DNA of 41,485 nucleotides from contig JAJZVB010000004.1 in NCBI GenBank assembly GCA_021845885.1, positions 1-41,485 of the forward strand, read 5' to 3'. Within the stretch, counting starts at the first letter, position 1. Every line of letters begins with the position of its first letter. A program made the translations under genes and the position numbers. Origin of the DNA: Pseudomonadota bacterium (GTDB lineage: Bacteria; Pseudomonadota; Gammaproteobacteria; Burkholderiales; JABEVD01). This document shows, in pieces, positions 19,608 to 35,485 of this stretch. The notes beneath the pieces are model-generated. The model was not told the origin of the DNA, did no database searches, and saw only the letters and a list, made by a program, of their open reading frames with translations.

Positions 19608-22600
19608 TCATCCCGATGAAAGCGTCTTCCCTTCCACAAGGAACAAGGCGATTTGCTCGGGCGGAACAGCGGGGCTGAAGAGATAGCCCTGGATCTCGTC
19701 GCACTCGAGCGCTTTCAATTGCGCCGCCTGCCCCATTGTTTCCACCCCTTCCGCGATCACCTTCATGTCGAGGGAATGGGCGAGCGAAATGATGCTCGAG
19801 ACGACGCCGAAATCGTCCGGACTGGTGTTCATGTTGACGATGAAGGAACGGTCTATTTTCAGCGAATTGACGGGAAGCCTTGCAATATAGCTGAGCGACG
19901 AATAGCCGGTTCCGAAATCGTCCACTGCGATTTCCATGCCCATTTCCCTGATTGTGAAAAGCTTTTTCATGTTCTCCTCGATGTCCTGCATGAGCAGGCT
20001 TTCCGTGATTTCCAGGTCGATGCGGGAAGCCCAGTTTCCGACCGCCTTTTCAACCTTCTCCACGAAATCCTTCTGCTTCAGCTGGAACGGCGAGACATTG
20101 ACAGCCACCCTGAGGGATTTCGAGCCGCTTTCGCCCCACTTCAGCGAATCGGACACCGCCTTCTCCAGCGCCCAGCGGCCGACTTCGAGTATCATGCCGG
20201 TCTCCTCGAGAAGCGGAATGAATTTCACAGGGGAAATCAGCCCGCCCTCGGGATCCTTCCATCTTATCAGCGCCTCGAGCGCGGTGATGCACCCGCTTCC
20301 CAGGTCGACCTTGGGCTGGTAATAAAGCACGAACTGGTCCTCTTCGAGCGCGCGCCGCAGCCTGTTCTCCATGGTCAGCTTTTCAGCCACCCTGGCGTTG
20401 ATTTCCGGGTTATAAAAGAGATATTTGTCGCCTGAAAGCTTGGCCTTTTTCAGGGCGGCCTCCGCATTCCTGAAAAGGGTTTCCGCATTCCTGCCGTTTG
20501 CGGGAAAGAGCGCGATGCCGAACCTTGCCGCGATCCTCAGCTCCGTCTCATCTATCCTGAAGGCCTCGGAAAGGGAATTCTGGACGTTTTCTATGAAATG
20601 AACGACATCGGACTCTCTTTCGAAGCCGTAATATATCGCGGCGAAGCTGTCCGCACTGATCCTGGAAAAATGATGCTTTTCCAGAACGCCTGCCGATAGC
20701 CGCTCGGCGATCTGCCTGAGCAGACCGTCCCCGGCATGTCTCCCCAGGGTCTCGTTGATGATCCTGAATCTCTCCAGATCCATCACCAGCACGGCGACCT
20801 GATCGTCCGCAAGCAGGAATTGGCTGAGCCGGTCGAAGAAAAGGGTGCGGTTCGGAAGTCCCGTCAGCACATCGTAATAGGCCAGATAATTGAGCTGTTC
20901 CTCCTTGGCCAGATGGTCGAGCCCGAATGAAATGTCGCCTGCGACTTCGACGAGCAGCTTCATTTCTTCCCTGTCGAAATAGTTCGCCTCGCCGGCATGG
21001 AGAACGAACACGCCGACCTTTTCGCCCCCGACATGGATCGGAAAAACCGCGAAAGCGCGATAACCGCGTTCAAAGGCCTCCTGGCAGATTGCTGAAAATT
21101 CGGGATCGGAGGCCATGTCATTGCAGACGACAATCCCGCTTTCCTTCATCGCCCCCGAATTCAGCAACTGGCTGAAAACCTTTTCGATATCGTCATCCCC
21201 CGCCTTCGCCGCGGGCACGATCCGTTCTTTCGAAAGCATCCCTATCCAGGCCATCTTGAATCCGCCGAGTTCGGCGGCGATCCTGCAGGCCTCGTCGAAA
21301 AGCGCTTTCCTGCTTTTGACTCTGACGATCGTCGTATTGATCCCGGAAAGCACGGCATAAACCCGGTTGAGGCGCATGATTCTTCTTTCCTGCGCCTTGC
21401 GGACGCTGACGTCTCGGGCGACCGTGGAAAGATACTCGACTGATTCCCCTCCCGCCTTGTGGGCGATGATGACCTGGGAAACCGGGATCTCCATCCCATC
21501 CCTCAAAAAAGCGGTTTCCCCGCTCCATGAGCCGAATTGCACGGCATGGGGAATACCCTCTTCCATGACGATCCTGATCGCCCATTCCGGATGTATGTCG
21601 TAGAGGTTTTCGGGCTTCCTGTCGCCTATCATGGCCAAGCCAGCTCGATTGATGGAAAGGAAATTCCCGGACGGATCCGCGGTCGCCACGAAATCGGGAG
21701 TCGAGTCAATGATCGCCAGCAATCTCTGCTGCTCCTTCTCGATGCGCTTTCTCGCGGCGATTTCGAATCTGAGCTCCTTCGTCCGCTCTTCCACCAGCTT
21801 TTCCATCTTCTCATGAAGTCTTGCGCGCTCGAGCGCCACTGCAACCTGCTCCCCGATATTGTGCAGGAGCCTCAGTTCGTTCTCGCTGAATTCCCTTTCC
21901 CCGACCAGATTCATCAAGCCGATCTTTCTTTCCCCGACAAGCAGGGGAATGCTGGCATGGCGAACCCTGTTGAGATTTTCGCATTCCGGAATATTGGCCG
22001 ACTGGACGAGTTCGCCTGAAAGAAGCTTGCGCTGACACAGGCAGTCTCCCTCGCCTACCTCGGAATCCATGTTGCAGGTCGCGCCTATCCTGAAAGCAGA
22101 CTGGCCTTCGAGCAGCAATATCCATCCGGCATGCACGGAAGGCAGTTCCACAGCGCGCTTCAGAGCGGTTTCAGCAACCTCCTTCTCGCTGCCCGCCTCG
22201 TTCAGCCCTTCGGCAATCCGGTAAAGACCGTTGAGGATCTGGTTGGAGCGGGCGAGATCCCTTTCCTTCAATTTCAGTTCGTCGTTGATCCGGATTGCCT
22301 GCTCGTAGGTTGAAATCAAAAGATCCAGAATCTGCTGGCGCTCCGCGGTGATGAAATGGGTCTTGCCGCTCAGCCTGATTTCAAGCCCAAGACGCATCCT
22401 CTGATTCTGCCGCAATTCCTTGTTCATCAGCAGGTATTCGATCCTGGAGACCAGGTAACGCGCGTCATAGGGTTTCCTGATGAAATTGTCTGCACCGCTC
22501 TCCAGGCCCCTGATGACATCCTCCGAATCGGAAAGCGAAGTCACCAGGATGACCGGCACTTCCTTCAGATTCTCGTCTTCCTTGACGGCCCTGCAAAAGC

Positions 22601-22793
22601 CGTAGCCGTCGAGCTCGGGCATGAGGATGTCGCTGACGATCAGGGCGGGCTTTTTTTTCCTGGCGATTTCCAGAGCCTGCCTGCCGTTTTCGGCGACTTC
22701 GGTGGCATAGCCCTGGCCCTCGAGAAGATACTGCAGCTGTACGGCCTGGGTTTTGCTGTCCTCGGCAATGAGAACGGTGATTTTGTCTTTCAT
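19608..22793 (-). CDS. REC-GAF-PAS-GAF-GGDEF(degenerate)-EAL protein, predicted c-di-GMP phosphodiesterase
   Basis: The 1061-residue product is the last gene of the Wsp-like cluster. Order: receiver (1-125, acceptor D55 in LIVSDILMPE), helical linker, GAF (about 200-325), PAS (about 355-475), second GAF (about 485-630), GGDEF (about 640-795) and EAL (about 810-1055). The GGDEF active-site motif is replaced by SADSF, so cyclase activity is unlikely. The EAL domain keeps EALIRW, the Asn of VNVSPFQ, LEITES, DDFGTGYSS, LKIDRSF and EGVET, so it should hydrolyse c-di-GMP. In Pseudomonas Wsp the same slot holds WspR, a REC-GGDEF cyclase. It overlaps cheB by ATGA and is expected to be phosphorylated by the adjacent CheA. 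Confidence 0.9.
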   Translation of the reverse strand: MKDKITVLIAEDSKTQAVQLQYLLEGQGYATEVAENGRQALEIARKKKPALIVSDILMPELDGYGFCRAVKEDENLKEVPVILVTSLSDSEDVIRGLESGADNFIRKPYDARYLVSRIEYLLMNKELRQNQRMRLGLEIRLSGKTHFITAERQQILDLLISTYEQAIRINDELKLKERDLARSNQILNGLYRIAEGLNEAGSEKEVAETALKRAVELPSVHAGWILLLEGQSAFRIGATCNMDSEVGEGDCLCQRKLLSGELVQSANIPECENLNRVRHASIPLLVGERKIGLMNLVGEREFSENELRLLHNIGEQVAVALERARLHEKMEKLVEERTKELRFEIAARKRIEKEQQRLLAIIDSTPDFVATADPSGNFLSINRAGLAMIGDRKPENLYDIHPEWAIRIVMEEGIPHAVQFGSWSGETAFLRDGMEIPVSQVIIAHKAGGESVEYLSTVARDVSVRKAQERRIMRLNRVYAVLSGINTTIVRVKSRKALFDEACRIAAELGGFKMAWIGMLSKERIVPAAKAGDDDIEKVFSQLLNSGAMKESGIVVCNDMASDPEFSAICQEAFERGYRAFAVFPIHVGGEKVGVFVLHAGEANYFDREEMKLLVEVAGDISFGLDHLAKEEQLNYLAYYDVLTGLPNRTLFFDRLSQFLLADDQVAVLVMDLERFRIINETLGRHAGDGLLRQIAERLSAGVLEKHHFSRISADSFAAIYYGFERESDVVHFIENVQNSLSEAFRIDETELRIAARFGIALFPANGRNAETLFRNAEAALKKAKLSGDKYLFYNPEINARVAEKLTMENRLRRALEEDQFVLYYQPKVDLGSGCITALEALIRWKDPEGGLISPVKFIPLLEETGMILEVGRWALEKAVSDSLKWGESGSKSLRVAVNVSPFQLKQKDFVEKVEKAVGNWASRIDLEITESLLMQDIEENMKKLFTIREMGMEIAVDDFGTGYSSLSYIARLPVNSLKIDRSFIVNMNTSPDDFGVVSSIISLAHSLDMKVIAEGVETMGQAAQLKALECDEIQGYLFSPAVPPEQIALFLVEGKTLSSG

Positions 22794-23821
22794 GGTCTCG
22801 CCCTTTTGTTCGCCATGGCGGCAAGGAACGGCGCGATATGTTCGGGCGCGAGAACGTAAGTCGCGCCATCGAGCCTGAGCGCTTCCCCGGCCATGCCGTA
22901 TACGACTGCGCTTTCCCTGTCCTGAACGAAAGTGACCGCTCCCTTTTCCTTCAGGAGCTTCATTTCCCGGGCGCCGTCCCTGCCCATTCCTGTCAGCAGT
23001 CCCGCCACGGAAGCGGGACCGAAATGGTCCGAAACCGACCGGAAAAGAAAGGAAACGGAAGGCCTCAGGCCGTTCTCAGGATCGTCGAGGGTGAGCGAAA
23101 TCCTGCCGCCTTTTTCCACCTTCATCTGATAGCCGTCAGGGGCGATGTAAACGCGCGAAGGCGCCATGACCTCTCCATGCCTCGCCAGGGCGACGGGCAG
23201 AGCGGAAGTCTGGGAAAGCCATTGCGCGAATCCCTGAAGGAACCCTGCAGCCATGTGCTGAACGATCAGGATGGGCAGGGGAAAATTATTCGGCATGGCG
23301 GACAGGATGCCCTGGAGCACCGGCGGCCCCCCCGTCGATGCGCCGATGGCGACGAGCTCGACAGCTGTCTCGGTCCGGGAGGAAAGGAACTTTCCCTTCG
23401 GCCAGCGCCTCACCAGTTTCACTTCGGCCATCGCCTTCACAACCTGGACAAGCTCCATGGCGCAGGCCTCCTGGTCGGGATGACCCAGGCCGGGAGGGCG
23501 CGGGACGAAAGCCAGGGCGCCGGACTCCATGGCATTGAATGTCGTTTTCACGTCTTCCGGATCGGCGCTTCCGCTCACGATGATGATGGGAATCGGATAT
23601 ATTTCCATGATTCTCCGGGTCGCATCCAGGCCACCCATTTTCGGCATGTGAACATCCATGGTGATGACATCGGGCCTGATGCGCATCGCGTTCTTTATGG
23701 CCTCCTCGCCGTCGGAGGCCATTCCGACGACGCTGATGCCGGGCGAGCTTTCCAACACGTGGACCAGCCATTCCCTGGCCACCCGGGAGTCTTCCACCAC
23801 CATCACCCTGATCTCTTTCAT
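22790..23821 (-). CDS. cheB: CheB-type methylesterase (WspF-like)
   Basis: The 343-residue product has an N-terminal receiver (D56 in VITMDVHMPKMGG) and a C-terminal methylesterase with the catalytic triad S162 (GASTGG), H189 (VQHM) and D282 (GMGRDG). It would demethylate or deamidate the MCP of the cluster and so set the signalling level of CheA. The conserved receiver Lys is replaced by Arg in LAFVPRPPG, a small departure that may alter phosphorylation. Junctions with cheA upstream and the EAL gene downstream are both ATGA overlaps. By position and partners it is the WspF equivalent; loss of WspF in Pseudomonas locks that system on. Confidence 0.92.
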   Translation of the reverse strand: MKEIRVMVVEDSRVAREWLVHVLESSPGISVVGMASDGEEAIKNAMRIRPDVITMDVHMPKMGGLDATRRIMEIYPIPIIIVSGSADPEDVKTTFNAMESGALAFVPRPPGLGHPDQEACAMELVQVVKAMAEVKLVRRWPKGKFLSSRTETAVELVAIGASTGGPPVLQGILSAMPNNFPLPILIVQHMAAGFLQGFAQWLSQTSALPVALARHGEVMAPSRVYIAPDGYQMKVEKGGRISLTLDDPENGLRPSVSFLFRSVSDHFGPASVAGLLTGMGRDGAREMKLLKEKGAVTFVQDRESAVVYGMAGEALRLDGATYVLAPEHIAPFLAAMANKRARP

Positions 23822-25800
23822 ATCAGCCTTCCCACGGTCTCGACGAGATTGCCCCGGTCGAAACCGCCCTTGACGATATAGGCATTCGCGCCGGCTTCGA
23901 TGCCCCGCTCCCGATGCTCCCTGGAGTCGAGCGCGGTCACGAGCACCACGGGAAGCGAGGAAAGATTTTCGTCCGCACGGATTCTGGCCGTGAGTTCGAA
24001 ACCGTTCATTCTGGGCATGTCGACATCCGAAACGACGAGATCGAATGATCCCTTTTTCAAATGATTCAGCGCATCGACGCCGTCCACGGCCGTATCGACC
24101 CTGTATCCCGCGGACTCCAGGATTCCCTTCAGGAGGGTTCTGGACGTGATCGAATCCTCCACCACGAGGATGGCCTTGAATTTTTCCTCTTCCAGAGACG
24201 GGGTCACGGACCTCGCCGAAGCCGATTTCATCAGGTCGGATGCATTCAGGACGGGCACGATCTCGCCCGTGCCGAGCAGACAGGCGCCGGCGACATTCCT
24301 GACCCGGACGAGCTGAGGGCCCAGAGTTTTGACGAGCACTTCCTGCTCGCCGAGAATCTCGTCGACCTTGAACCCGAAATGCGCCCCTTCCCGGCCCAGC
24401 ACGATCACCTTCACGGGGTCGGCCTTCGACTGCGGGCCTGCAATCCCGAGCACGGCGACAAGGCTGAAGAGCGCAACCGCCTTCCCCTCGATTTCGGCGG
24501 ATTCCACATTTTCCACGAGCCTGATTTCCCTCCTTTCCACTCTCGCCGCCTTCGCAATGCTTGCGGAAGGAATGACGAAAAGCCTGCCTCCAGCGCGAAC
24601 CAGCACGCCCCTGAAAGTGGCGAGGGTCAATGGCAGGACAAGGCGGAAAACCATGCCGCTGCCGCCGGGGTCGACTTCAATGTTTCCCCCCAGCTTTTCG
24701 GTTTTTTCCTTGACGATGGCGAGCCCCAATCCCCGCCCTGAGATATCGGTGACGGAAGGGCTCGCCGTCACCCCCGACTTGAAAAGAAGCGACGCCATCT
24801 CCCCGGGCCCGACCTTTTCTTCCGGGGAAAGGAACCCGAGCCTGATTCCGGATGCCTTCACTTTCTCGACATCGATTCCGGCCCCGTCGTCGGATACGGC
24901 GATTTCAACCTTTCCGCCTTCTTTCTGGCTCAATGCAATCATGATCCTGCCTTGCGGCGGCTTCATCCTGGCGATTCTCTCTTCCGGAATTTCTATGCCG
25001 TGATCGGCCGCATTGCGCAGCAAATGGATGAGCGGCTCCTTGATTTCCTCCAATATCCGCCTGTCGATCTCGATTTCCCCTCCCCTGATTTCGAGATCGA
25101 TCTTTTTCCCGAGTTCCTTCGAGATCTCCCGAACGAAGCGGGGGAACGCATCGGATACGGAAGAAAAAGGCATCATGAGCATTTCCCTCGCATCGGAAAG
25201 GAGCGCTTCGATCAGGGCTGAAAAGCTGAGCAAATCCTGTTCTGCGATTTTCCTGAAAGCGCTCATGCGCGATTCGGCAGCCTTCATGGCCAGCGTCAGG
25301 TCAGCCCCCTTGCCGGGCAGGCGGAGCATGCCGAGCATTTCGTCCAGGTCCTTCAATCTCTGCTGCTCGGCGAGCCTGGGGAAAAGCAGCTCTTCGGCCC
25401 GCCTCATGACCGTCCCCAGCTTCCTTACGTCAACCCTGACCGTTTCGCTTTCGACCCCTGCAGGTTCGGCGCCCTGGGGCTTCGGGAGCAGTCCAACGAT
25501 ATCATCGACGGCCTCCTGGATTCCCAGGAGCAACTCAGGGGAAACTTTTATTTTCCCGCTTTTCATTTGCGAGAACAGGTCTTCCAGAGACTGGCAGGCA
25601 TGCTCTATCTGCGTCATGTTCACCGCCCTTGCCGCCCCTTTCAGGCTGTGCGCCTCGCGGTAGATCCTTTCGACGATTTCTTCCCGCATCCCGGGCGTAT
25701 CCCTCAAGGCGGTGACGCAGGACGACATCGCCTCGACATGTTCGAACGCCTCGACCCTGAAGGTCGCAGTCAATCTGGAAAGGAAATCGCCTTCTTCCAT
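23818..25800 (-). CDS. cheA: CheA-receiver hybrid histidine kinase (WspE-like)
   Basis: The 660-residue product has an N-terminal Hpt domain with phospho-acceptor H51 (REAHSLKGAAR), a kinase core with LIHLLRNAADHGIE, DDGAGID and GRGLGLAIVKEK, a CheW-like regulatory domain (about 395-525), and a C-terminal receiver (about 540-660, VVSDVDMPRMNG). There is no obvious separate P2 domain. The fused receiver is the hallmark of WspE and other alternative-function CheA proteins, and may act as a phosphate sink or relay. It follows the MCP gene with no gap and overlaps cheB by ATGA. Its likely targets are the receivers of CheB and of the EAL protein. Confidence 0.92.
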   Translation of the reverse strand: MEEGDFLSRLTATFRVEAFEHVEAMSSCVTALRDTPGMREEIVERIYREAHSLKGAARAVNMTQIEHACQSLEDLFSQMKSGKIKVSPELLLGIQEAVDDIVGLLPKPQGAEPAGVESETVRVDVRKLGTVMRRAEELLFPRLAEQQRLKDLDEMLGMLRLPGKGADLTLAMKAAESRMSAFRKIAEQDLLSFSALIEALLSDAREMLMMPFSSVSDAFPRFVREISKELGKKIDLEIRGGEIEIDRRILEEIKEPLIHLLRNAADHGIEIPEERIARMKPPQGRIMIALSQKEGGKVEIAVSDDGAGIDVEKVKASGIRLGFLSPEEKVGPGEMASLLFKSGVTASPSVTDISGRGLGLAIVKEKTEKLGGNIEVDPGGSGMVFRLVLPLTLATFRGVLVRAGGRLFVIPSASIAKAARVERREIRLVENVESAEIEGKAVALFSLVAVLGIAGPQSKADPVKVIVLGREGAHFGFKVDEILGEQEVLVKTLGPQLVRVRNVAGACLLGTGEIVPVLNASDLMKSASARSVTPSLEEEKFKAILVVEDSITSRTLLKGILESAGYRVDTAVDGVDALNHLKKGSFDLVVSDVDMPRMNGFELTARIRADENLSSLPVVLVTALDSREHRERGIEAGANAYIVKGGFDRGNLVETVGRLI

Positions 25801-27261
25801 TCATTTCGCCCCGATCATCTCCCCGAGATGCCTGCCGAGTTCGTGCAGATTGCGCGCTGCAGCCTCGGCCTGTTTCGTTCCCGCCACATTCTGCTGGCTG
25901 GCCTGCCTGATGTTTTCCATGGCCAGCGCGACCTGGTCCATTCCCACCATCTGCTGCTGGCTGGAAGCGGCAATCTGGATCGAAGCCTGGGCGGCCTCGT
26001 TGATGCTTTCCGAAAGCAGGCTGATCGATTCCCCGGCTGCACGGGATTGCCTGACCCCTTCTTCCACGACCTTGGCACCCTGCTCGGCGGCAAGGGCGGC
26101 AGATGAAGTGCCCTTCTGGATTTCAGTGAGGATGGATCTTACCCTGGCTGTCGCCTGTTTCGACTGTTCGGCCAGGTTCTTGATTTCCTGCGCCACGACG
26201 GCGAATCCTTTGCCGTGCTCTCCGGCCTTGTTCGCCTCGATGGCGGCATTCACGGCAAGGATGCTGGACTGCTCGGCAAGATCGTTGACGCTGACGATGA
26301 TCTCGCCGATCGTCTGTCCCTGTTCCGAAAGTTCGACGATCCGCTCCGCGATCTGCGCCATTCTGTCCTGGATGCCCTGCATCACCTTGACCGAGTCATC
26401 CACGGATTTCTTCCCTGCGACGGCGGTTTGCGAAGCTTTTTGAGCACTTTCGGAAACGTTCTTCGCCTTTTGGCTGGCCAGCTGGGCGGTCTGCTTCACT
26501 TCCTCCACTGTGGCGGTGGTTTCGCTCACGGCGGTGGCCGTCTCGGCGGCACCCGATGCGACCTGAGTGGTGGTGGCGAGTATCTGGCTGGATGATGAAG
26601 CCAGCTGGTTAATGCTTTCCTTCAACTGAACGGAAATCGATCGGGTGACGAAATAGCCGAGCAAGGCCAATGCGGCAATGGCCGAGGGAATGCCGTAAAG
26701 AATGGCCGAGAGGGTGGCCCGAGCGCCCGAATTTTCCTTGCCGCTCCTCGTCTTGAGCAGCCCTTCTTCTTCAGCCTGCATATCCGAAATGATTTTCCGG
26801 ATATCGTCCATCTCGTTCTTGCCCCTGTCCGTCCTGACAATCTGCAGGGCGGCATCGAATCCCTGATTTTTCCTCAGGTCTATGGTTTCCTTCATTTCGG
26901 CAAGCTTGTCCGAAACGAGCGGCTCCAGAATGGCGATCCGCCTCTGCTGCAAGGGATTGTCGATGGTCTGTTCGCGCAATTCCTGAAGAGACTCGCTGAT
27001 CGACGCGATGCCTGCATTGTAGGGCTGCAGATAGCTCTCCTCCCCCGCCACGAGATAACCGCGCTGGCCTGTTTCAGCGTCCTGCAATGCGGAAAGCAGG
27101 TTTCCGAGCCTGTCGAGGACCTCGAAGGAATGCGCTCTGAGCTTGGCGCCCTCGATCAGCTCCGCCGCATTGCGGTATGAAAATAGGCCCAGGACCAGCA
27201 GCATGAAAAGCGCCAGCGCATAGCCCGCGCCGATCTTCGTTCCGACAGCCCACTTCGTCAT
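25801..27261 (-). CDS. CHASE3-containing methyl-accepting protein (WspA-like)
   Basis: The 486-residue product has membrane helix 1 (about 11-28), a periplasmic CHASE3-type sensor (about 35-175, with DAETGQRGYLVAGEE), membrane helix 2 (about 185-205) and a long cytoplasmic signalling coiled coil. The hairpin tip is canonical (NDLAEQSSILAVNAAIEANK, then GKGFAVVAQEIKNLAEQS). No clear HAMP domain is present: helix 2 runs almost directly into the coiled coil. No CheR-tethering pentapeptide is seen at the C-terminus (ends LGEMIGAK). It sits between the second CheW and CheA, whereas wspA is first in Pseudomonas, so the order is rearranged. Confidence 0.9.
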   Translation of the reverse strand: MTKWAVGTKIGAGYALALFMLLVLGLFSYRNAAELIEGAKLRAHSFEVLDRLGNLLSALQDAETGQRGYLVAGEESYLQPYNAGIASISESLQELREQTIDNPLQQRRIAILEPLVSDKLAEMKETIDLRKNQGFDAALQIVRTDRGKNEMDDIRKIISDMQAEEEGLLKTRSGKENSGARATLSAILYGIPSAIAALALLGYFVTRSISVQLKESINQLASSSSQILATTTQVASGAAETATAVSETTATVEEVKQTAQLASQKAKNVSESAQKASQTAVAGKKSVDDSVKVMQGIQDRMAQIAERIVELSEQGQTIGEIIVSVNDLAEQSSILAVNAAIEANKAGEHGKGFAVVAQEIKNLAEQSKQATARVRSILTEIQKGTSSAALAAEQGAKVVEEGVRQSRAAGESISLLSESINEAAQASIQIAASSQQQMVGMDQVALAMENIRQASQQNVAGTKQAEAAARNLHELGRHLGEMIGAK

Positions 27262-27274
27262 TTCATTTCCTCCT

Positions 27275-27853
27275 TCATGCGCTTTCGTCGACGATCAATC
27301 TTCCGTCCTCCGTCAGCTTCCCGACATCGAGAATGATGAGGTGGTCCGGTGCCACGCCTAAAACATGGTCCGTTCCGGGAAGTGGCTGCTTCACGAGGCT
27401 TCTCGGGATGGCATGCACGCCGAGAATGGCATCCGCCAGGATGCAGAACCGCATTTCGCCCTGCTCGAGAACGACAAGCCTGTTCATGTCGGTCAGCCCC
27501 CTTTTGGGAAGCCCGAGGAATTTTTCCAGATCGACGACTGAAAGTATTTCCCCGCGGATGTCGACGATGCCCGGAACGAAATCAGGCGTGCAGGGAAGCG
27601 AGGTCAGCCGCTCAAGGGGAAAAACATCCCTTACATATCTGGATTCGGCCGCATAGCGCTCCCTGCCCAGCTGAAACTCGACGACCTCGATCATCTCCCC
27701 TTCGGGAACGCCGGTCCCGCTTTCTTTGGCCAGCTGCGCAGCCCTTCTTTTCAGGATGGCCCTCACCTGTTCCGGCTCCCAGGCGCGCGCCATGGCCGCT
27801 TCCGCCGCCGCAAGGCGCTGCCTCACCGCGTCCCAGTCGATCCTAGAGGCCAT
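27275..27853 (-). CDS. cheW: CheW with N-terminal extension (WspD-like)
   Basis: CheW couples the MCP to CheA. The 192-residue product has a helical extension of about 55 residues (MASRIDWDAVRQRLAAAEAAMARAWEPEQVRAILKRRAAQLA...) before the CheW fold (about 55-190: EVVEFQLGRERYAAES, PDFVPGIVDIRGEILSVVDLEKFLGL). The extension is typical of WspD-type CheW proteins. It overlaps the end of cheR by 11 bases and is 13 bases before the MCP gene. It is one of two non-identical CheW proteins in the cluster, as in Wsp. Confidence 0.9.
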   Translation of the reverse strand: MASRIDWDAVRQRLAAAEAAMARAWEPEQVRAILKRRAAQLAKESGTGVPEGEMIEVVEFQLGRERYAAESRYVRDVFPLERLTSLPCTPDFVPGIVDIRGEILSVVDLEKFLGLPKRGLTDMNRLVVLEQGEMRFCILADAILGVHAIPRSLVKQPLPGTDHVLGVAPDHLIILDVGKLTEDGRLIVDESA

Positions 27854-29081
27854 TTACGCCCTTCCCGCCCAGCATGGCGATGATTCCTGCAAGCCGCCCC
27901 GCTGCGAACCCATCCGATTCGGAAAGGATTTCATCTTCAGGCAATTTCTCGAGCAGGATCCTGGCATTATCGAAATGGGATCCGGCCTCCCTGCCCCGGT
28001 TCTGGGAAAGACACAGGCTGCCCAGCGCAAAATGGGCGAGGATGAAATCCGGATCGAGATAGAGCGTCTTTCTGAGCTCCCTTTCCCCCTCGCTGATTCT
28101 TCCCATCTCGTGCAAGATGCTGGCGAATAGATAATGCCTTTTCGGGTCGAGCCTTTCCGATTCGATCGCCTTTTCGCACCAAATGACGGCTTCATCGAGC
28201 TTTCCCCGATCAGCGCACGATCTCGCCATCAGGCAGGCGTCGGGAAGGATTTCGATCTTCTTTTCAGGACAGGATGCAGCCGGCTTTTCCTTCGGCTTCC
28301 TATAGAATACGGCACCCGGGAAATCGACGGATTCGAAGCGATGGAAAAGGGCTTCGGAAAGTTCCGCGGGGCTCACGACGAGCCAGCCGTTTTCAACTGC
28401 AGCCCCGTACAGCCTGTTTGCTGCGCTCTCCTGCATTTCCGGGCTGAAATACATCAGCACGTTCCTGCACAAAATGATGTCCATGCCTTCGGGATAGGCA
28501 TCTTCCACGAGATTATGTCTGGAAAATCGCACCATTTCCCTGATGCGGGGAAGAAGCTCGTAACCCTTCTCCTTTTTCCTGAAATAGCCGCTGATCCAGG
28601 AAGGGACATCCCTGAACGACCATTCGCCGTACAGGCCTTCTGCGGCCTTTTCCAGGAAGCGGGGATTGATGTCCGTGGCGAGGATATGGATCCCATCACG
28701 CCCGCGAGCCATCCTGTCGAGCAGCATGGCGATGGAATAAGGCTCCTCTCCGCTGCAGCAGCCTGCGCTCCATATCCGGATCGAAGCCCTCGTTCTCAGG
28801 AGTTCAGGCAACACTTCGAGCTCCAGCGCATCGAAAATTTTCCCGTCCCTGAAAAAATAGGTCTCGCCCACGGTCAAATGGCTGGCGAGTATTTCAATTG
28901 GCTCGCGCCCGGCCCTGCCTGAAAGAAGCCATGTTGCGCAGGCATCCTCCCCCGGGAATCCGAGATCCTTTGCCGCTAGAGCCAATCCCCGTTCGAGATC
29001 CGCCCTGCGCTTCCGGGGAAAATAGAGCCCGACATGAGCGGAAAGCAGCTTGCTCAACGGCTCATAAAAAGCATCCTGCAT
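27843..29081 (-). CDS. cheR: CheR methyltransferase with TPR tail (WspC-like)
   Basis: The 412-residue product has the CheR N-terminal helical domain (1-80, HVGLYFPRKRRADLERGL, LTVGETYFFRD), the SAM-binding fold (WSAGCCSGEEPYSIAM, ILATDINPRFL, MDIILCRNVLMYF), and a C-terminal extension (about 300-400) with TPR-like repeats (KRHYLFASILHEMGRISEGERELRKTLYLDPDFILAHFALGSL). CheR-TPR architecture is characteristic of WspC and related alternative chemosensory systems. It methylates glutamates on the MCP. It starts at the base after the upstream cheW stop. Confidence 0.92.
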   Translation of the reverse strand: MQDAFYEPLSKLLSAHVGLYFPRKRRADLERGLALAAKDLGFPGEDACATWLLSGRAGREPIEILASHLTVGETYFFRDGKIFDALELEVLPELLRTRASIRIWSAGCCSGEEPYSIAMLLDRMARGRDGIHILATDINPRFLEKAAEGLYGEWSFRDVPSWISGYFRKKEKGYELLPRIREMVRFSRHNLVEDAYPEGMDIILCRNVLMYFSPEMQESAANRLYGAAVENGWLVVSPAELSEALFHRFESVDFPGAVFYRKPKEKPAASCPEKKIEILPDACLMARSCADRGKLDEAVIWCEKAIESERLDPKRHYLFASILHEMGRISEGERELRKTLYLDPDFILAHFALGSLCLSQNRGREAGSHFDNARILLEKLPEDEILSESDGFAAGRLAGIIAMLGGKGVNGL

Positions 29082-29528
29082 TCAGGTGCACTCCATGGCC
29101 AAGTCGAGCTGCATCCTTTCCTTCCCGGAAAGGAATGCCTCTAGATCTTGGATGAGCACCAGATCCTCCCCGATTCGGGCAATGCCGCCGATATGCTCCA
29201 GCCCGGGATGAATGCATTCGGGTTCGATGATTTTTTCGCATTCAACCACCTCCCCGATTGAATCGGCTATCAGGCCCACCCTGCGCTTTTCGGTATGGGC
29301 GAGAATGATCCTGTCGGTCAACGCAAGCGCCTTCGCGGGAAGGCCGAAGCGGCTTCGGATATTGAATATGGGAACGATTTTTCCCGCCAGGTTGATGACG
29401 CCTTCCACGATCTCGGGGGCGCCAGGCAAGGGGGTGACCTCCACAGAAGGAACGATCCTGTCCACTGAGGCTAGCGGCAGGGCATAATGCAATTCGGACA
29501 GGGAAAACAGGAGCAGCCGGCCATTCAT
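29082..29528 (-). CDS. cheW: Short CheW (WspB-like), first gene of the chemosensory set
   Basis: The 148-residue product is a single CheW domain (LLLFSLSELHYALPLASVDRIVPSVEVTPLPGAP, EIVEGVINLAGKIVPIFNIRSRFGL). It lacks the extension of the second CheW, matching the WspB/WspD pairing. It is 85 bases downstream of phcQ on the same strand. That gap is short enough for read-through from the phc genes but long enough to hold its own promoter. Confidence 0.9.
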   Translation of the reverse strand: MNGRLLLFSLSELHYALPLASVDRIVPSVEVTPLPGAPEIVEGVINLAGKIVPIFNIRSRFGLPAKALALTDRIILAHTEKRRVGLIADSIGEVVECEKIIEPECIHPGLEHIGGIARIGEDLVLIQDLEAFLSGKERMQLDLAMECT

Positions 29529-29621
29529 GACGATTCCGTTATCTTATTCGTCTTTCCCCTTTAGCACATATCCATTAAAAGGCAAGCAAAACTGTCAGGA
29601 TTTACAGGTGCCATTACCTGT
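29529..29621 (-). promoter_or_regulatory. phcQ-cheW junction with short hairpins
   Basis: A perfect 6-bp inverted repeat ACAGGT/ACCTGT (29604-29609 and 29616-29621) spans the phcQ stop codon. A second short stem CTGT/ACAG followed by TTTT can form just after it on the minus strand. They are too weak to call a terminator with confidence; partial attenuation between the quorum-sensing and chemosensory halves is possible. The rest of the gap is A+T-rich, but no promoter box close to consensus stands out. Confidence 0.3.
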
Positions 29622-30567
29622 CGCAAAACTGGCTGATCCAGGCGGCGATCCTCGATGCGGACAATGCCTTTCCGGACGAGGCCACGATCATGCCTTCGAG
29701 GCTGCCTTCGTTTTTCTTCAGCTGCAGCGACCGTCCCGTTCCATGCAGCCGGATGAGGAAGGCGAGCCAGGCAACATGCTGCTGAGAGACTTGTGAATCG
29801 GAAGGGGTTTCCAGGAATTCGGAGAAATCGGGCGCGTTTTCAAACAAAACGGCCCCGTTGCCCGAGATTTTCGCGCCGATTTCGAGAAGCAGATCCGCTT
29901 CCCCCTGCAAGCCGGTCTCGCCCAGCCTGTTTTTCAATGCCAGTCCGAATTGGCCGGCGCGCAAGGCTTCCGCCGCGACCAGATCGGAATAATCCATCAG
30001 CAGCCAGTCGGGCTCGGGCGGGTTGACACCGACGGCAGAAGCGGCAGAAAGATAGTCCTCAAGGACCGAGGCCGATCCTGCAAGAGGATGGCACAATGCG
30101 TAAAGCGTGCCTATGCGGCTGGACACGGTTTGCATTTGACGGACGATCAGCTTCTCGTGCAGAAGCTGGGCATGCTCCTTGCGCAGAGCGGCCAATTCGA
30201 GCGCCTGCTTCAATTCCATTCTCAGGGCCGATATTTCCCAGGGTTTCTGGATGTATCGATGGATCTGCCCCTGATTGACCGCCTCGACGGTCTGCTCGAG
30301 TTCGGAATAAGCCGTGGTCAGGATCCGCACCATGTGAGGATACCGGGTTCGCGCGTAGACCAGCAGCTCGTTGCCGAATCCTCCCGGCATGCGCTGGTCC
30401 GAAACCAGAACGGTCAGCGTCTCTCCATGCTCGTCCAGCTTCCGCATGCCCTCCTCCACAGTGCAAGCTGTAACAACAGGGGCCAGCGAATCGATTGCAC
30501 GCTGGAAATATTTGACTGCCGTGGCCTCATCGTCGACGAACAGGATTAGCGGGGCATTGTCGGTCAT
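29614..30567 (-). CDS. phcQ: PhcQ-like response regulator
   Basis: The 317-residue product has an N-terminal receiver (APLILFVDDEATAVKYFQRA, acceptor D57 in VLVSDQRMPGG, then ILTTAY and YIQKPW) and a helical C-terminal region of about 190 residues with no DNA-binding or kinase motif I can recognise. This matches PhcQ of the Ralstonia phcBSRQ operon, where PhcQ relays quorum-sensing state to PhcA-controlled genes. ATG 30567 was chosen because it overlaps the phcR stop (ATGA) and starts MTDNAPLILFVDDE; a longer frame inside phcR is rejected. The name rests on gene order and architecture. Confidence 0.75.
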   Translation of the reverse strand: MTDNAPLILFVDDEATAVKYFQRAIDSLAPVVTACTVEEGMRKLDEHGETLTVLVSDQRMPGGFGNELLVYARTRYPHMVRILTTAYSELEQTVEAVNQGQIHRYIQKPWEISALRMELKQALELAALRKEHAQLLHEKLIVRQMQTVSSRIGTLYALCHPLAGSASVLEDYLSAASAVGVNPPEPDWLLMDYSDLVAAEALRAGQFGLALKNRLGETGLQGEADLLLEIGAKISGNGAVLFENAPDFSEFLETPSDSQVSQQHVAWLAFLIRLHGTGRSLQLKKNEGSLEGMIVASSGKALSASRIAAWISQFCDR

Positions 30568-31643
30568 GAATCGCTCCTTTTGATAGCCGGAAAGTTGAGT
30601 GTGACGGCAGTATGGATGTCCGGTTCCGAGTGGATCAGGATGCTGCCTCCGAATGACTGCATGATGCGATTGCAGAAAATCATCCCCCATCCCTTTCCGC
30701 CTTCATCCGCATGGGTCGTGACGGGATCACGCATCAGGCGCTCAAGAATGTCGGGGGAAATGCCCGAGCCGTTGTCGACGATGCGTATCTTCGGGCTGTC
30801 TTCCACAAGCACGGTGAAGCAAATCATGGGCGAAGGCTCGCCCTTGATGGCTCGAAGCGCGTTGCCGAGCAGGGAGGACAATACCAGAAGGACGCAATTG
30901 GGCAGGACCATGACCGGGAAATCTTCGAGTATTTCCGTCCGGACCAAGGCCCTCTGGGCTGGATTCAGCGGATAGGTGTCGAGCAGGGATGAAATCAATT
31001 GCCGCGCAGTGCTGTATGCCTCATGGGTGACCGAACCCGCCCCCTGGATCGATTCGGAAAAGGTGGAAAGCAGGGTCAGGCAATAGCCGGCATTGTCGTC
31101 TATGGCCTTCAGGGCTTTCGCGACCTCCGGCTGGCTGGTCCTTCGAGCGATGCCCCTTGCAAAATTGATGATCGTGGCAAGCGGGGTATTGAGTTCATGC
31201 CCGAGAAAAGCGAGCGTCTCGTCGATGGCCTTCAGCCTTTGATGCCTTGCCCTGCGTTCGCGTGAAAGCTCGTCCGCCAGGCGCAGGGCTTTCCTGACCT
31301 CATCGAAATCCAGAGGCTTTTCGAGTATCCTGAAAATTTCGCCGGAATTCACCGCATCGAGAAGCACATCCCGGTCTGCAAATGCAGTCACGAGGATGCG
31401 GACAGCCTGCGGGAAATCACGGGCTGTCTGGCGCAGCAGATCCCCCCCATCCCTTCCCGGCATGCGGTAATCCGTGACCAGTATGTCCACTCTTCTGCCT
31501 AGCAGGATGTCGATCGCGGCATCGGCGCCGGATGCGGTCAGCACCGAATAGTCGGTGCCGAAGGCGCGGGCGAAGTATTTCCCGGCCATGTCTTCGTCAT
31601 CCACATACAGGATCACGGCGGCGGATTCATCCCGGTTCATCAT
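30564..31643 (-). CDS. phcR: PhcR-like receiver-histidine kinase
   Basis: The 359-residue product reverses the usual hybrid kinase order. An N-terminal receiver (ILYVDDEDMAGKYF, D58 in ILVTDYRMPGRDGG, K109 in EKPLDF) is followed by a histidine kinase with H149 in FLGHELNTP and an ATP-binding domain (LLGNALRAI, VDNGSGISP, GGKGWGMIFCNRI). There is no membrane segment, so it is cytoplasmic. In Ralstonia PhcR has this same architecture and is the partner of PhcS. Both flanking junctions are ATGA overlaps, so phcS, phcR and phcQ are tightly coupled. Confidence 0.78.
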   Translation of the reverse strand: MMNRDESAAVILYVDDEDMAGKYFARAFGTDYSVLTASGADAAIDILLGRRVDILVTDYRMPGRDGGDLLRQTARDFPQAVRILVTAFADRDVLLDAVNSGEIFRILEKPLDFDEVRKALRLADELSRERRARHQRLKAIDETLAFLGHELNTPLATIINFARGIARRTSQPEVAKALKAIDDNAGYCLTLLSTFSESIQGAGSVTHEAYSTARQLISSLLDTYPLNPAQRALVRTEILEDFPVMVLPNCVLLVLSSLLGNALRAIKGEPSPMICFTVLVEDSPKIRIVDNGSGISPDILERLMRDPVTTHADEGGKGWGMIFCNRIMQSFGGSILIHSEPDIHTAVTLNFPAIKRSDS

Positions 31644-32962
31644 CCGGCCCTCGGCAAATCAAAAATCATTTTCGTCCATTCGCCATATGCACTTTCCGCA
31701 ACCAGCGTTCCCCCATGCCTTTCGATCACGCCGTAGCTGATGGAAAGGCCCAGGCCGAGCCCCTGGCCGATTTCCCTGGTGGTGAAAAAGGGTTCGAACA
31801 CCCGGTCCAGATTCTCGGGTGCAATGCCCGGACCATTGTCCTGAACCGTGACGAAAAGCCGGTCGCCCCGCCATGCTGCGGAAAGATGGATGGCAGGCTC
31901 GACCCGTTTCGCTGAATGCAGCGCAAGGGCCGAATTGCCGAGCAGGTTGACCAATACGCCGATGACGGCCGCCTCGTCCCCCCGCACCAGCGTGTCCTCC
32001 GGCATATCGCGCGTGATCGAAATACCCCTGGTTTCGTGGCCGACCAGACGAAGCGCAGAATCGGCCACTTTCCCGAAAAGGAAATCGTTCCTTTCCGTTT
32101 CCCCGGTCCGATAAGCGAATGTCTTCAGGTCCGAAACGATATGCTGGATCCGCTGCATCCCCTGCCTGGCATCCATCAGGCATTCCTTGAGCGAATCGCT
32201 GACCCTGGCAACGGGGTCTTCCATCGCGACTTCCATCGCCATCAGGCAATAATTGACCGGATTGTTGACTTCGTGCAAGAGACCTGCGGAAAGCGTGCCT
32301 ATGGCGGCCATCTTTTCCTGCTGCAGCATCTGCCCCTTGATTTGCGCGAGATTCCTGTTGGTTTCTTCAAGCTCGCTGTTCTTCCTCGACAGCTCCGCCT
32401 TGAGCCGGAAAAGCATGTAGCGGGTATGTTCGTTGAAATAGGCGCTGACTGCGCTGACGGCGATGACGAAGGCGAGAAACAGCACATTGATGAGAAAAAC
32501 CCCGTGCAGAACGAAGCTTCCGGGATGCAGGGCGCATACTGCAATATAAAACAGGAAAGTCACCAGGCTCAAGAAGAGGTTATGCCAGAAGCTGAAAGGC
32601 AGCCCGATGCTGGACGCGAAAATGGCGAGGTAGAGACCGATGCTGTACATGGATCTCGCCCCGTCGGTTTCGGCAATCATCCAGGCGATCATGATCTGCG
32701 GCAAGAGAAGCCAGAGCAGCGAGAGCATATCCGTGGCGTCCCGGGACCATTTTGCCTTCATCACGAGGATGACGCCGTAAATCATCAGCGAAACGAGCAG
32801 CCGAACGGCGCCGAACTCGTACAACTTCTGCGGATAAAGCGCGTAATCCAGCCCCACGCCAAGCAGGATGAGAATGATCCCCATGTATGCGCAGGCTATA
32901 CTGAAGTTTAGGCGGAATCCCTTGATTTCATTCTGATATTCAGTATATCTCGGCCCGCTCAT
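31640..32962 (-). CDS. phcS: PhcS-like six-helix sensor histidine kinase
   Basis: The 440-residue product has six membrane helices (about 20-38, 52-70, 80-97, 104-120, 130-146, 153-175), a short coiled linker and a HisKA/HATPase core: H230 in LLHEVNNPVNYC, LLGNSALAL, VQDNGPGIAPENL and GQGLGLGLSISYGVI. The helical sensor with almost no periplasmic loops is the PhcS/LqsS/CqsS type, which detects small lipophilic autoinducers. PhcS senses 3-hydroxy fatty-acid methyl esters made by PhcB, and its gene is 17 bases after phcB here. The LqsS/CqsS alternative is less likely because no LqsA/CqsA synthase is present. Confidence 0.78.
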   Translation of the reverse strand: MSGPRYTEYQNEIKGFRLNFSIACAYMGIILILLGVGLDYALYPQKLYEFGAVRLLVSLMIYGVILVMKAKWSRDATDMLSLLWLLLPQIMIAWMIAETDGARSMYSIGLYLAIFASSIGLPFSFWHNLFLSLVTFLFYIAVCALHPGSFVLHGVFLINVLFLAFVIAVSAVSAYFNEHTRYMLFRLKAELSRKNSELEETNRNLAQIKGQMLQQEKMAAIGTLSAGLLHEVNNPVNYCLMAMEVAMEDPVARVSDSLKECLMDARQGMQRIQHIVSDLKTFAYRTGETERNDFLFGKVADSALRLVGHETRGISITRDMPEDTLVRGDEAAVIGVLVNLLGNSALALHSAKRVEPAIHLSAAWRGDRLFVTVQDNGPGIAPENLDRVFEPFFTTREIGQGLGLGLSISYGVIERHGGTLVAESAYGEWTKMIFDLPRAG

Positions 32963-32979
32963 GAATGGGTATCAATCGC

Positions 32980-34368
32980 TCACGCGACGGTCATTTCCGC
33001 AAAAACGTTCACCCCCGTGGCATCGACAAAGATGCTGTATTCCCGGGATGCGGGAGGAAGAAGCGAAGCGAGCCCCGCCTCGTCCCGCAGGATCAGATAC
33101 CACTCGAGCAAATGCTCCATCACGAATTTCATCGGATTGACCGAATGGACATTGGTGACCAGGAGCATGCCCCCCAAATGCGTGCGCGCAGCAAAATGCC
33201 CTATGAGTCTCGCGCAAACCTTGTCCGACAGATAATCGAAAAGACCGGCGCAGTACACGGCGTCGAATTCCCTTTCGTCATGAGAAGGATCGATGCGGCG
33301 CTTGAGCAGCTTGTGGACGGAGTCATGCACGTAATCGATGGAAACCGGCTTGGCCGTCTGCGCGATGACGGATGAAAGTTTATTTCTGGTCCAGTCCAGC
33401 GTTTCTTCGCTGAAATCGACGAGTTCGAAGGAAAGGAACTCGGGCTGCGGATGACTTTGCAGAAAACGCTGTATCTCGATGGCCGGACCGCACCCCACAT
33501 TCAGGATGCGGAAAGGCCTCCCGGCCTGTCTCGCCTTTTCCGCAAGCCGGTTCAGAAAGTCCACCAGAATGACGATGCGGTTGCGGTGAGCCTCCGCCAT
33601 GGGTGTTTGCAGGAAAGCCGCATTCACCATCTGGAAATACGTGGAGGGCCCCCTGCGCGGATCGTCGAGGATCTGGTTGACCATCTGGTAGTCGCCGGCA
33701 TAGCCCAGGGGCTTCATGTAGGTTCTGAAAACGAAGGGCGCGCGCAGCAGAAGCGGATGCAGGGCGGATTGGGCATAGGCGCGATGCGATGAGGACAGCT
33801 CCGCATCGACAAGGGATGCTTCCCCGTTCAATACATCGAGATAGCGTTGCGCCTTCTGCATCAGGGGATCGAAAAGTTCGAAAAACACGTCTTCCCTGAG
33901 CTGACCTTCCGCCTTGGGAAGCGATTCGGAAAGATCCACCTGTTCGATCCAGCGAGAAACATCGGAGAGGTAGGCGCGCATCTCGTTCACCACGATCTGG
34001 TAGTCCCGCCTGATCTGGAAACGCCTCGTCCAGTCCTCGACGAATGCCTGCGCTTCGGCCCCCACAGTGCCTGGCACCGCATCGACATCGTTCAATTCGC
34101 GCCATTCGTCGATGAGCGTCACCGAAACGATCGCGGTAAGGCCCGTATTGACCAGGCTGATGACGACAGCCTTGCCGAGGTAGGCTATCCTGGCGCCGAA
34201 TCTCACCGTGAATTCGCCGAGCACTTCGCTGACCTGCACGATGGAATAGGGATTGTATACCTCCATCACGAGGGATTTTCTCTGCAGGTTGACGATCGTC
34301 CCCCTGACAGCTTCGCCCTCTGCGTTGCGGAAACTCACCAGCGGGTCAATTTGTTTTTGTGTATGCAA
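32980..34368 (-). CDS. phcB: PhcB-like signal synthase (methyltransferase)
   Basis: The 462-residue product ends in a class I SAM-dependent methyltransferase (motif I RILNVGCGP at about 288-296, LVDFSEETLDW, FDAVYCAGLFDYLSD). Before it lies the helical region with YMKPLGYAGDYQMVNQI (about 217-233), a hallmark of the PhcB family that methylates 3-hydroxy fatty acids to the Ralstonia autoinducers 3-OH PAME/MAME. The first 95 residues are beta-rich and resemble a PilZ-like barrel without the RxxxR and (D/N)xSxxG c-di-GMP motifs. The frame has no ATG near its start; TTG 34368 is the best start, with a weak ribosome-binding site. It heads phcBSRQ. Confidence 0.8.
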   Translation of the reverse strand: MHTQKQIDPLVSFRNAEGEAVRGTIVNLQRKSLVMEVYNPYSIVQVSEVLGEFTVRFGARIAYLGKAVVISLVNTGLTAIVSVTLIDEWRELNDVDAVPGTVGAEAQAFVEDWTRRFQIRRDYQIVVNEMRAYLSDVSRWIEQVDLSESLPKAEGQLREDVFFELFDPLMQKAQRYLDVLNGEASLVDAELSSSHRAYAQSALHPLLLRAPFVFRTYMKPLGYAGDYQMVNQILDDPRRGPSTYFQMVNAAFLQTPMAEAHRNRIVILVDFLNRLAEKARQAGRPFRILNVGCGPAIEIQRFLQSHPQPEFLSFELVDFSEETLDWTRNKLSSVIAQTAKPVSIDYVHDSVHKLLKRRIDPSHDEREFDAVYCAGLFDYLSDKVCARLIGHFAARTHLGGMLLVTNVHSVNPMKFVMEHLLEWYLILRDEAGLASLLPPASREYSIFVDATGVNVFAEMTVA

Positions 34369-34486
34369 AGTATCTCGGGAAATGGGACGACCAGATCCTT
34401 GTGGTTAAACATAGTCATGTAGCGCTACAATAACAGAAAGACTGCTATACGAAAACCGGAGCGTCAAGCGCGTCATATTGCGGCAA
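34369..34486. promoter_or_regulatory. Divergent phcB / LqsR-like control region with 12-bp palindrome
   Basis: This 118-base spacer must hold both divergent promoters. Its clearest feature is TGTAGCGCTACA (34418-34429), a perfect 12-bp palindrome roughly midway between the two starts. On the plus strand TACAAT (34426-34431) overlaps its right half and could be a -10. No near-consensus -35 is seen for either direction, suggesting activator-dependent promoters. The palindrome is a candidate operator; no regulator can be named. Confidence 0.5.
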
Positions 34487-35485
34487 ATGGACAATCGCCT
34501 ACCTGTTTACAGCTACCCGACATTGACCGTGCTGATCGATGACAGCCGGAGTTTTCTGGACAGTCTGGCCTTCCAGCTGAACCCGAGGATAGGGTACAAG
34601 ATATTTCACGATACCCGGGAAACGCTCGACTGGCTTCACGACGCTCAACGCTATGCCGCCATAAGCGATCCGATCTATGCCAAATCCGATGAATTGTCGC
34701 AATTCTTCGAAAGGCACAGCGCCTCCATCGATCTCAGCCGGATCTACCATATCGCGATGAACCGGCAGCGTTTCAGCCTGCCGACCGTGCTGGTCGTCGA
34801 CTACGCGATGCCCCGGACGAACGGGCTGGAATTGTGCCAGGCGGTGCAGGGCCTGCCCTGCAAGAAAATATTGCTGACCGGACAGGCCGACGAAAAGGTT
34901 GCCGTCGAGGCCTTCAATCGCAATCTGATCGATCGATTCATCAAGAAACAGGACCCCAATGCACTGAATCGCCTTGAAGAAGAAATCGTCCGGTTGCAGA
35001 AGGATTTCTTCAACGAGCGGACAAGCACGCTGAAGGACCTGCTTCTTGACGAGACCTATTCCTTTCTGTCCGACCCGGCCATGGGTTCGCTCGTCGCCCG
35101 GATCGGCAGCCGCTACCGCTTTGTCGAGCACTATCTTTTCCCTCACCCCTCAGGCATCCTTTTCTTCGATATCCGAGGCAAGGCCACATTGATGGTGATA
35201 GAAACAGCAGCGGGACTGATTTCCCATGCCGAGATCGCCGAGGATCAGAATGCCCCTCCCGAACTGCTCTCAGCCCTGAAGGCATTCAGGCTGGTGCCTT
35301 TCTTTTCCGACACGAGCGGGATGTATTCGGATGCGATCAGCCACGACTGGCTCTCCTACTGCCTGCCGCCCCAGATCTGCCATGGCCGACAGGATTATTA
35401 CTGGGCATTGTTCGATCTGCCTTCCCATTATCTGAAAGGCACGGTCTATCCCTATGCGGAATTCCTGAAAACGCAATCGATCTGA
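34487..35485 (+). CDS. LqsR-like response regulator
   Basis: The 332-residue product starts with receiver-like TLTVLIDDSRSFLDSL. The acceptor Asp is not reached until D105 (VLVVDYAMPRTNGLEL) because about 50 extra residues, mostly helical, are inserted in the receiver. ILLTG and the conserved Lys (RFIKKQ) follow. The C-terminal 150 residues carry no DNA-binding motif. A receiver with such an insertion and a non-DNA-binding C-terminal domain matches LqsR, the Legionella quorum-sensing regulator. ATG 34487 is chosen; TTG 34478 is an alternative that would put the Asp at 108. It is divergent from phcB and ends 4 bases before the convergent nfu stop. Confidence 0.6.
   Translation: MDNRLPVYSYPTLTVLIDDSRSFLDSLAFQLNPRIGYKIFHDTRETLDWLHDAQRYAAISDPIYAKSDELSQFFERHSASIDLSRIYHIAMNRQRFSLPTVLVVDYAMPRTNGLELCQAVQGLPCKKILLTGQADEKVAVEAFNRNLIDRFIKKQDPNALNRLEEEIVRLQKDFFNERTSTLKDLLLDETYSFLSDPAMGSLVARIGSRYRFVEHYLFPHPSGILFFDIRGKATLMVIETAAGLISHAEIAEDQNAPPELLSALKAFRLVPFFSDTSGMYSDAISHDWLSYCLPPQICHGRQDYYWALFDLPSHYLKGTVYPYAEFLKTQSI

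Follow-up and report, generated by a model that had tools for sequence, protein, structure and literature searches.

A 41,485-nucleotide stretch of contig JAJZVB010000004.1 (assembly GCA_021845885.1, a Pseudomonadota bacterium of the order Burkholderiales), here called the window, carries a complete set of phcBSRQ quorum-sensing genes followed by a Wsp-like chemosensory (che) operon, the output of which is a predicted phosphodiesterase of cyclic di-GMP (c-di-GMP). It is probable that these are two adjacent modules and that the che operon is served by a promoter of its own, bearing a lux-type box, through which a LuxR protein responding to acyl-homoserine lactone (AHL) would adjust the amount of the array, the Phc genes perhaps contributing read-through or acting in parallel. 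More tentatively, we suggest that widespread Wsp-like operons with a phosphodiesterase output may have been placed under quorum control several times independently in the Burkholderiales, by a promoter box, by an embedded luxR-luxI pair, or by abutting Phc genes. The window corresponds to contig C19 in assembly G000 (2.07 Mb, 96% complete), and it was compared with other genomes of the genus (G001 to G008).

A probable che promoter and its box

The 85-bp gap between phcQ and cheW1 contains two features:

29529..29613, minus strand: che promoter region with a TTGCTT-18-GCTAAA core, also conserved 5' of cheW1 in genus-mates, whether or not they have phc
29592..29607, no strand assigned: putative lux-type box CTGTAAATCCTGACAG (minus strand), one mismatch to CTGTCA-N4-TGACAG

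The promoter core is present 5' of cheW1 in G000 and in G008, a second species of the genus, and there is a near copy in G003, which has no phc genes. The core is preceded by AATTCCCGACC in both G008 and G003. Since genomes without phc also have this promoter region, there is no need to assume a single phc-che transcript. The 85-bp gap showed no terminator-like site, and read-through from phcQ is therefore possible, though not needed. Scans for sigma-70 consensus elements and terminators gave no enrichment over shuffled sequences.

Upstream of the promoter element at cheW1, the palindrome CTGTCA-N4-TGACAG is perfect in G008, G002 and G004. Apart from its counterpart in the gap, no site in the 41-kb window comes within one mismatch of the palindrome, and 27 of 200,000 shuffles of the gap reached the box score. 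The box abuts the -35-like element in the window, whereas in the three genus-mates some 22-35 bp separate it from the matching element downstream.

The same box marks the promoters of AHL synthase genes. A search of the nine genus genomes for the palindrome returned 22 sites, versus 0 for the reversed control pattern; G002 has five sites, G003 has one, and G001, G005 and G006 have none. The box stands directly upstream of luxI, at a distance of roughly 40-70 bp, in G000, G004, G007 and G008, so that the che and luxI promoters share a lux-type box that is perfect in three genus-mates and has one mismatch in the window. The box-bearing luxI genes are arranged luxI-DUF4902-luxR, where we take DUF4902 to be the RsaM family; the luxR of G000 is cut by a contig end, and none was seen on the short luxI contig of G004. 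A second box, ATGTCACTATTGACAG, with one mismatch, is found just 5' of luxR in G008, G007 and G000 (L246:2547, L247:2625 and L249:2593).

A second luxI type, found in G001 and G003, is associated with CTATCA-N4-(T/A)GATAG; G001 and G005 have this other type only, and no luxI was found in G006. G003 is the sole che-bearing genome with only the second luxI type, and it lacks the first box at che. At the matching place it has CTATCATTTCTGCTAA, which differs from the luxI box of that genome by two mismatches; the reading of this site as a box of the genome's own luxI type is suggestive only. Box type co-varies with luxI type across the genomes, which supports a LuxR-type reader of the box. The link between the che operon and cell density thus appears better founded than the original prediction, made from the sequence of the window, had it, and would run through the lux-type box and luxI/luxR rather than through Phc. 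No lux-type box was found in the phcB/phcX intergenic region.

Several observations weigh against this reading. The window's own copy of the box is imperfect by one mismatch, no luxI was found in the fragmented G002 assembly although that genome has five boxes, and a box at cheW1 is lacking in 15 of the 17 che loci from outside the genus; quorum control would on this last count be recurrent, not universal. LexA-type sites share the pattern CTGT-N8-ACAG, and this resemblance, together with the G002 result, could be taken to mean that CTGTCA-N4-TGACAG is the site of some other repressor or activator, such as a LexA-like protein. We consider that very improbable, given the position of the box upstream of luxI in four genomes, the copy near luxR in three, and its absence from the genomes that have only the other luxI type (G001, G005) or none (G006), with a single site in G003. 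The palindrome also resembles the binding consensus of CviR, CTGNCCNNNNGGNCAG (PMC12114271).

Boxes also occur at other genes of the genus. A perfect copy in G008 (contig C40, L243:2970-2985) is 92 bp upstream of rpoS (L243:3077), and the AHL regulon of the genus may therefore include the stationary-phase sigma factor. In G002 a box (L229:2991) lies 241 bp upstream of a gene for a NIT-HAMP methyl-accepting chemotaxis protein (MCP), and in G004 a box (L234:3027) lies just after an MCP gene.

Joined and separate modules in the genus and the order

The junction of phc and che is genuine and lineage-specific. In G008 (L027) the layout is identical and the flanks are the same, on the nfuA side and on the nrdD side, with protein identities of 51-78%. 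We rejected an assembly artefact because this second, independent metagenome-assembled genome (MAG) has the same order and flanks. The remaining genomes carry one module or neither: in G007, which lacks che, nfuA-phcX-phcBSRQ leads into a TonB receptor gene; the che operon of G002, G003 and G004 stands at another place, and phcB is missing from these three; both modules are lacking in G001, G005 and G006. In no genus genome do both modules occur unjoined. Since each occurs alone within the same genus, phc and che are separable modules. The nrdD match in G008 (contig C14:12258-14378) has one in-frame TAA, perhaps because the gene is broken or the assembly is wrong there.

Outside this pair of species the junction was not encountered. 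Among the best 80 of 237 phc relatives, the che operon is joined to phc in one, G008 (a few of the phc contigs end soon after phcQ), and none of the phc loci from the order-wide search carries it. Of 26 che loci that were read, two (L201 and L262) are distant, and only the window and G008 have phc among the other 24. A general pairing of phcBSRQ with che was rejected on these grounds, as about 82 other phc loci and about 22 other che loci were inspected without showing it. In the che tree, the G000 and G008 proteins form a group with modest support (0.77). Rooting of a species tree with LysR genes was uninformative, since the three genomes are separated by similar distances, and the metR pair is mis-paired; rpoB is missing from the G000 assembly. 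In Paraburkholderia bryophila (L110:867-7000), distant matches to cheR, cheB and cheA-like genes and to EAL lie 5' of phcB; this is a chemosensory-type locus of another kind lying close to a phc operon.

These distributions bear on what the junction means. The original prediction proposed one circuit, combining cell density with an envelope cue, in which phcBSRQ and che would be co-transcribed, and PhcS, PhcR and PhcQ would exchange signals with CheA to set c-di-GMP. Much of its basis stands: a complete phcBSRQ set adjoins a Wsp-like chemosensory set, their order and short gap are kept in two species despite the sequence divergence between them, the gap has no detected terminator-like site, and no genus genome has the modules unjoined. 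We nonetheless consider a single circuit unlikely. The modules are separable, the che operon has its own promoter region, shared with genomes that lack phc, the predicted output is a phosphodiesterase, and the adjacency, though conserved in the second species, is missing from every other locus inspected. Moreover, PhcQ of Ralstonia acts through PhcA (PMC13320629, PMC8578825).

The opposite view, that the modules are plain neighbours, supposes a chance move of the che operon behind phcQ in one ancestor, with separate regulation and no mutual influence. It fits the separability of the modules, the che promoter region and a lux-type box that is independent of phc, and we regard it as possible, if somewhat doubtful, for the order has been kept in two species though the che operon sits elsewhere in three genus-mates. 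We prefer the reading given at the outset, in which the che operon has its own promoter and box and the Phc genes add read-through or act in parallel.

Gene content, output and proposed mechanism

The 11 genes on the minus strand and the receiver gene divergent from them are all real open reading frames with the expected domains, as judged by an open-reading-frame check and Pfam:

34478..35485, plus strand: phcX, receiver protein of the lqsR family, divergent from phcB (Response_reg; 70-72% identity in G007 and G008)
34369..34477, no strand assigned: phcB/phcX divergent intergenic region (GCGCTACAATARCAGAAAG common to G008, partly to G007)
32980..34368, minus strand: phcB, signal-synthase methyltransferase (Methyltransf_25; 70% identity to Cupriavidus PhcB)
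31640..32962, minus strand: phcS, membrane sensor histidine kinase (HisKA, HATPase_c; synteny)
30564..31643, minus strand: phcR, receiver-histidine kinase (REC, HisKA, HATPase_c)
29614..30567, minus strand: phcQ, receiver protein with a C-terminal part that has no domain match (REC; 67-69% identity in G007 and G008)
29082..29528, minus strand: cheW1 (CheW)
27843..29081, minus strand: cheR with a TPR-like C-terminal part, WspC-like (CheR above the cut-off, TPR just below the Pfam cut-off)
27275..27853, minus strand: cheW2, WspD-like (CheW)
25801..27261, minus strand: CHASE3 methyl-accepting protein (CHASE3, MCPsignal; alignment; HAMP domain not detected)
23818..25800, minus strand: cheA with a C-terminal receiver, WspE-like (Hpt, HATPase_c, CheW, REC)
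22790..23821, minus strand: cheB, REC-methylesterase (CheB_methylest, REC)
19608..22793, minus strand: REC-GAF-GAF-GGDEF(degenerate)-EAL output protein, predicted c-di-GMP phosphodiesterase (domains, motifs)

Neighbouring genes overlap by 4-11 bp or abut, except at phcB-phcS (17 bp), cheW2-mcp (13 bp) and phcQ-cheW1 (85 bp). We place the start of phcQ at 30567 rather than 30690; the first-start reading frame is too long, and the later start overlaps phcR by 4 bp. The earlier description of the run thus holds: 11 co-directional, mostly overlapping or abutting genes, an LqsR-like receiver divergent from them, and the 85 bp at 29529-29613 as the sole gap above 20 bp. So does the identification of phcBSRQ, starting from a PhcB-like synthase; the set is complete, with phcB, phcS, phcR and phcQ in order and matching in domains. 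Identity to Cupriavidus phcBSRQ loci (67-70% for PhcB, 57-63% for PhcS, about 55-58% for PhcR and 52-57% for PhcQ) indicates that the naming of the genes is sound. In a Phc system PhcB would produce a 3-hydroxy fatty acid methyl ester as the quorum signal and PhcS would sense it. Compared without a PhcA reference protein, eight LysR genes in G000 resemble CbbR, CysB, OxyR, YeiE, MetR, GcvA and, in two cases, YafC/AaeR.

PhcX belongs to the LqsR family and adjoins phcB in Ralstonia (PMC10653808). A phcX/lqsR gene also adjoins phcB in L034 (Candidatus Nitrotoga), L105 (a Methylotenera MAG) and L106 (a Burkholderiaceae MAG), beyond the three genera named in that paper.

The chemosensory genes form an array of the alternative cellular function (ACF) type, with CheA, CheW, CheR-TPR, CheB, a receptor and a multidomain response regulator in one cluster (definition in PMC3447774); the TPR matches in the CheR protein lie just below Pfam cut-offs. 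In the output protein the GGDEF motif is degenerate (SADSF), and the EAL signature is intact (EALIRW, DDFGTG, EGVE, EIQGY). The output is therefore predicted to be a c-di-GMP phosphodiesterase, opposite to the cyclase WspR. Judged by output, we rejected membership in Wsp itself, since the motifs are not those of a WspR-type REC-GGDEF cyclase, and filed the operon as Wsp-like. The array was rightly recognized at the outset as Wsp-like, with a c-di-GMP enzyme as output; that enzyme is not of the WspR type.

By analogy with Wsp, the CHASE3 receptor array and the two CheW proteins would control the CheA-receiver hybrid, and CheR-TPR and CheB would adapt the receptor. CheA would phosphorylate the receiver of the REC-GAF-GAF-GGDEF(degenerate)-EAL protein and so change c-di-GMP breakdown. 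AHL-bound LuxR, from the luxI-rsaM-luxR set of the genome, would bind at the che box and change transcription of the array with cell density, the receptor cue would set the activity of the array, and Phc may add read-through transcription or act in parallel. The signs of regulation and the net effect on c-di-GMP are presumptive.

If this scheme is right, density sets the number of arrays and the receptor cue their activity, a two-key switch that lowers c-di-GMP, and the lineage of the window possibly has two different quorum signals on the switch. Relatives of Wsp with the opposite predicted output and a repeated tie to quorum sensing would show density and an envelope or surface cue combined for exit from biofilms. 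The prediction is concrete: its boxes and promoters are named, and genomes in which one module occurs naturally without the other can serve as controls.

Other families and known systems

Putative quorum-sensing links recur at che operons of other families. In 436 kb of che loci there are five perfect palindromes of the form CTGTnA-N4-TnACAG, all upstream of cheW1: three in the genus, and one each in G151 (CTGTCA type) and G384 (CTGTAA type), which belong to other families. In 1.59 Mb of phc loci there are two, one of which is the G008 che box. A Janthinobacterium MAG (L044:7133) has the palindrome CTGTTAAGGTTAACAG about 1.1 kb upstream of phcB.

G052 and G141, from two further families, have a luxR and, convergent with it, a luxI between cheR and cheW2 of the che operon. 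This pair shares 81-83% identity from one genome to the other; Pfam matches are above cut-offs for luxR of both and for luxI of G052. CviR is the nearest solved relative of the embedded LuxR, the match spanning almost the full length, and the luxI-cheW2 gap of both genomes contains ACCTGnCC-N4-GGnCAGGT, a perfect fit to the CviR consensus. Perfect sites of this type number only these two in 556 kb, versus two in the 1.59 Mb of phc loci. An order-wide search with the embedded LuxR found close relatives in G052 and G141 only.

NCBIfam models for PEP-CTERM acyltransferase and EpsA match the embedded pair below cut-offs, and EpsA is the top NCBIfam match of this LuxR. That assignment is disfavoured by the CviR-type box, the near full-length CviR match and the higher AHL-synthase scores. 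We cautiously favour a quorum-sensing pair. In G052 two extra GGDEF genes (HAMP-GGDEF and PAS-GGDEF, L195:12537-15505) lie between cheA and cheB, and one operon thus holds the array and opposing c-di-GMP enzymes.

Loci with a box and loci with luxRI are dispersed over the che tree, which favours several gains. In the open-access literature searched, we found no description of a quorum-linked chemosensory and c-di-GMP operon of this combination. As far as that literature shows, the phc junction is new, and so is the repeated occurrence of quorum-sensing boxes or genes at a chemosensory phosphodiesterase operon.

Wsp-type arrays are surface sensors that raise c-di-GMP. The che operon resembles Pseudomonas Wsp (WspABCDEF-WspR) in its receptor, two CheW proteins, CheR-TPR, CheA-receiver hybrid, CheB and a c-di-GMP enzyme as response regulator. 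It differs in gene order (cheW-cheR-cheW-mcp, with the receptor fourth), in a CHASE3 receptor in which HAMP was not detected, in an intact EAL and degenerate GGDEF that predict a phosphodiesterase instead of the WspR cyclase, and in the lux-type box at the che promoter. The CheR-TPR/ACF clusters listed in 2012, which include one EAL regulator and two REC proteins fused to both GGDEF and EAL, share the CheR-TPR and the multidomain response regulator, but that paper mentions no quorum-sensing link (PMC3447774). The Phc half has the same four genes in the same order as the Ralstonia/Cupriavidus system, with phcX adjoining phcB (PMC10653808), whereas the locus in the window continues into a chemosensory operon. 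The che-embedded luxR of G052 and its box correspond to CviR and the CviR consensus of the Chromobacterium CviI/CviR system, but the G052 pair is embedded between cheR and cheW2, and it is not in the genome of the window. In Nitrospira, an NspR1 lux box upstream of a GGDEF/EAL gene likewise links AHL quorum sensing to a c-di-GMP enzyme, but there it concerns a single enzyme gene with no chemosensory array and another box sequence (PMC8553950).

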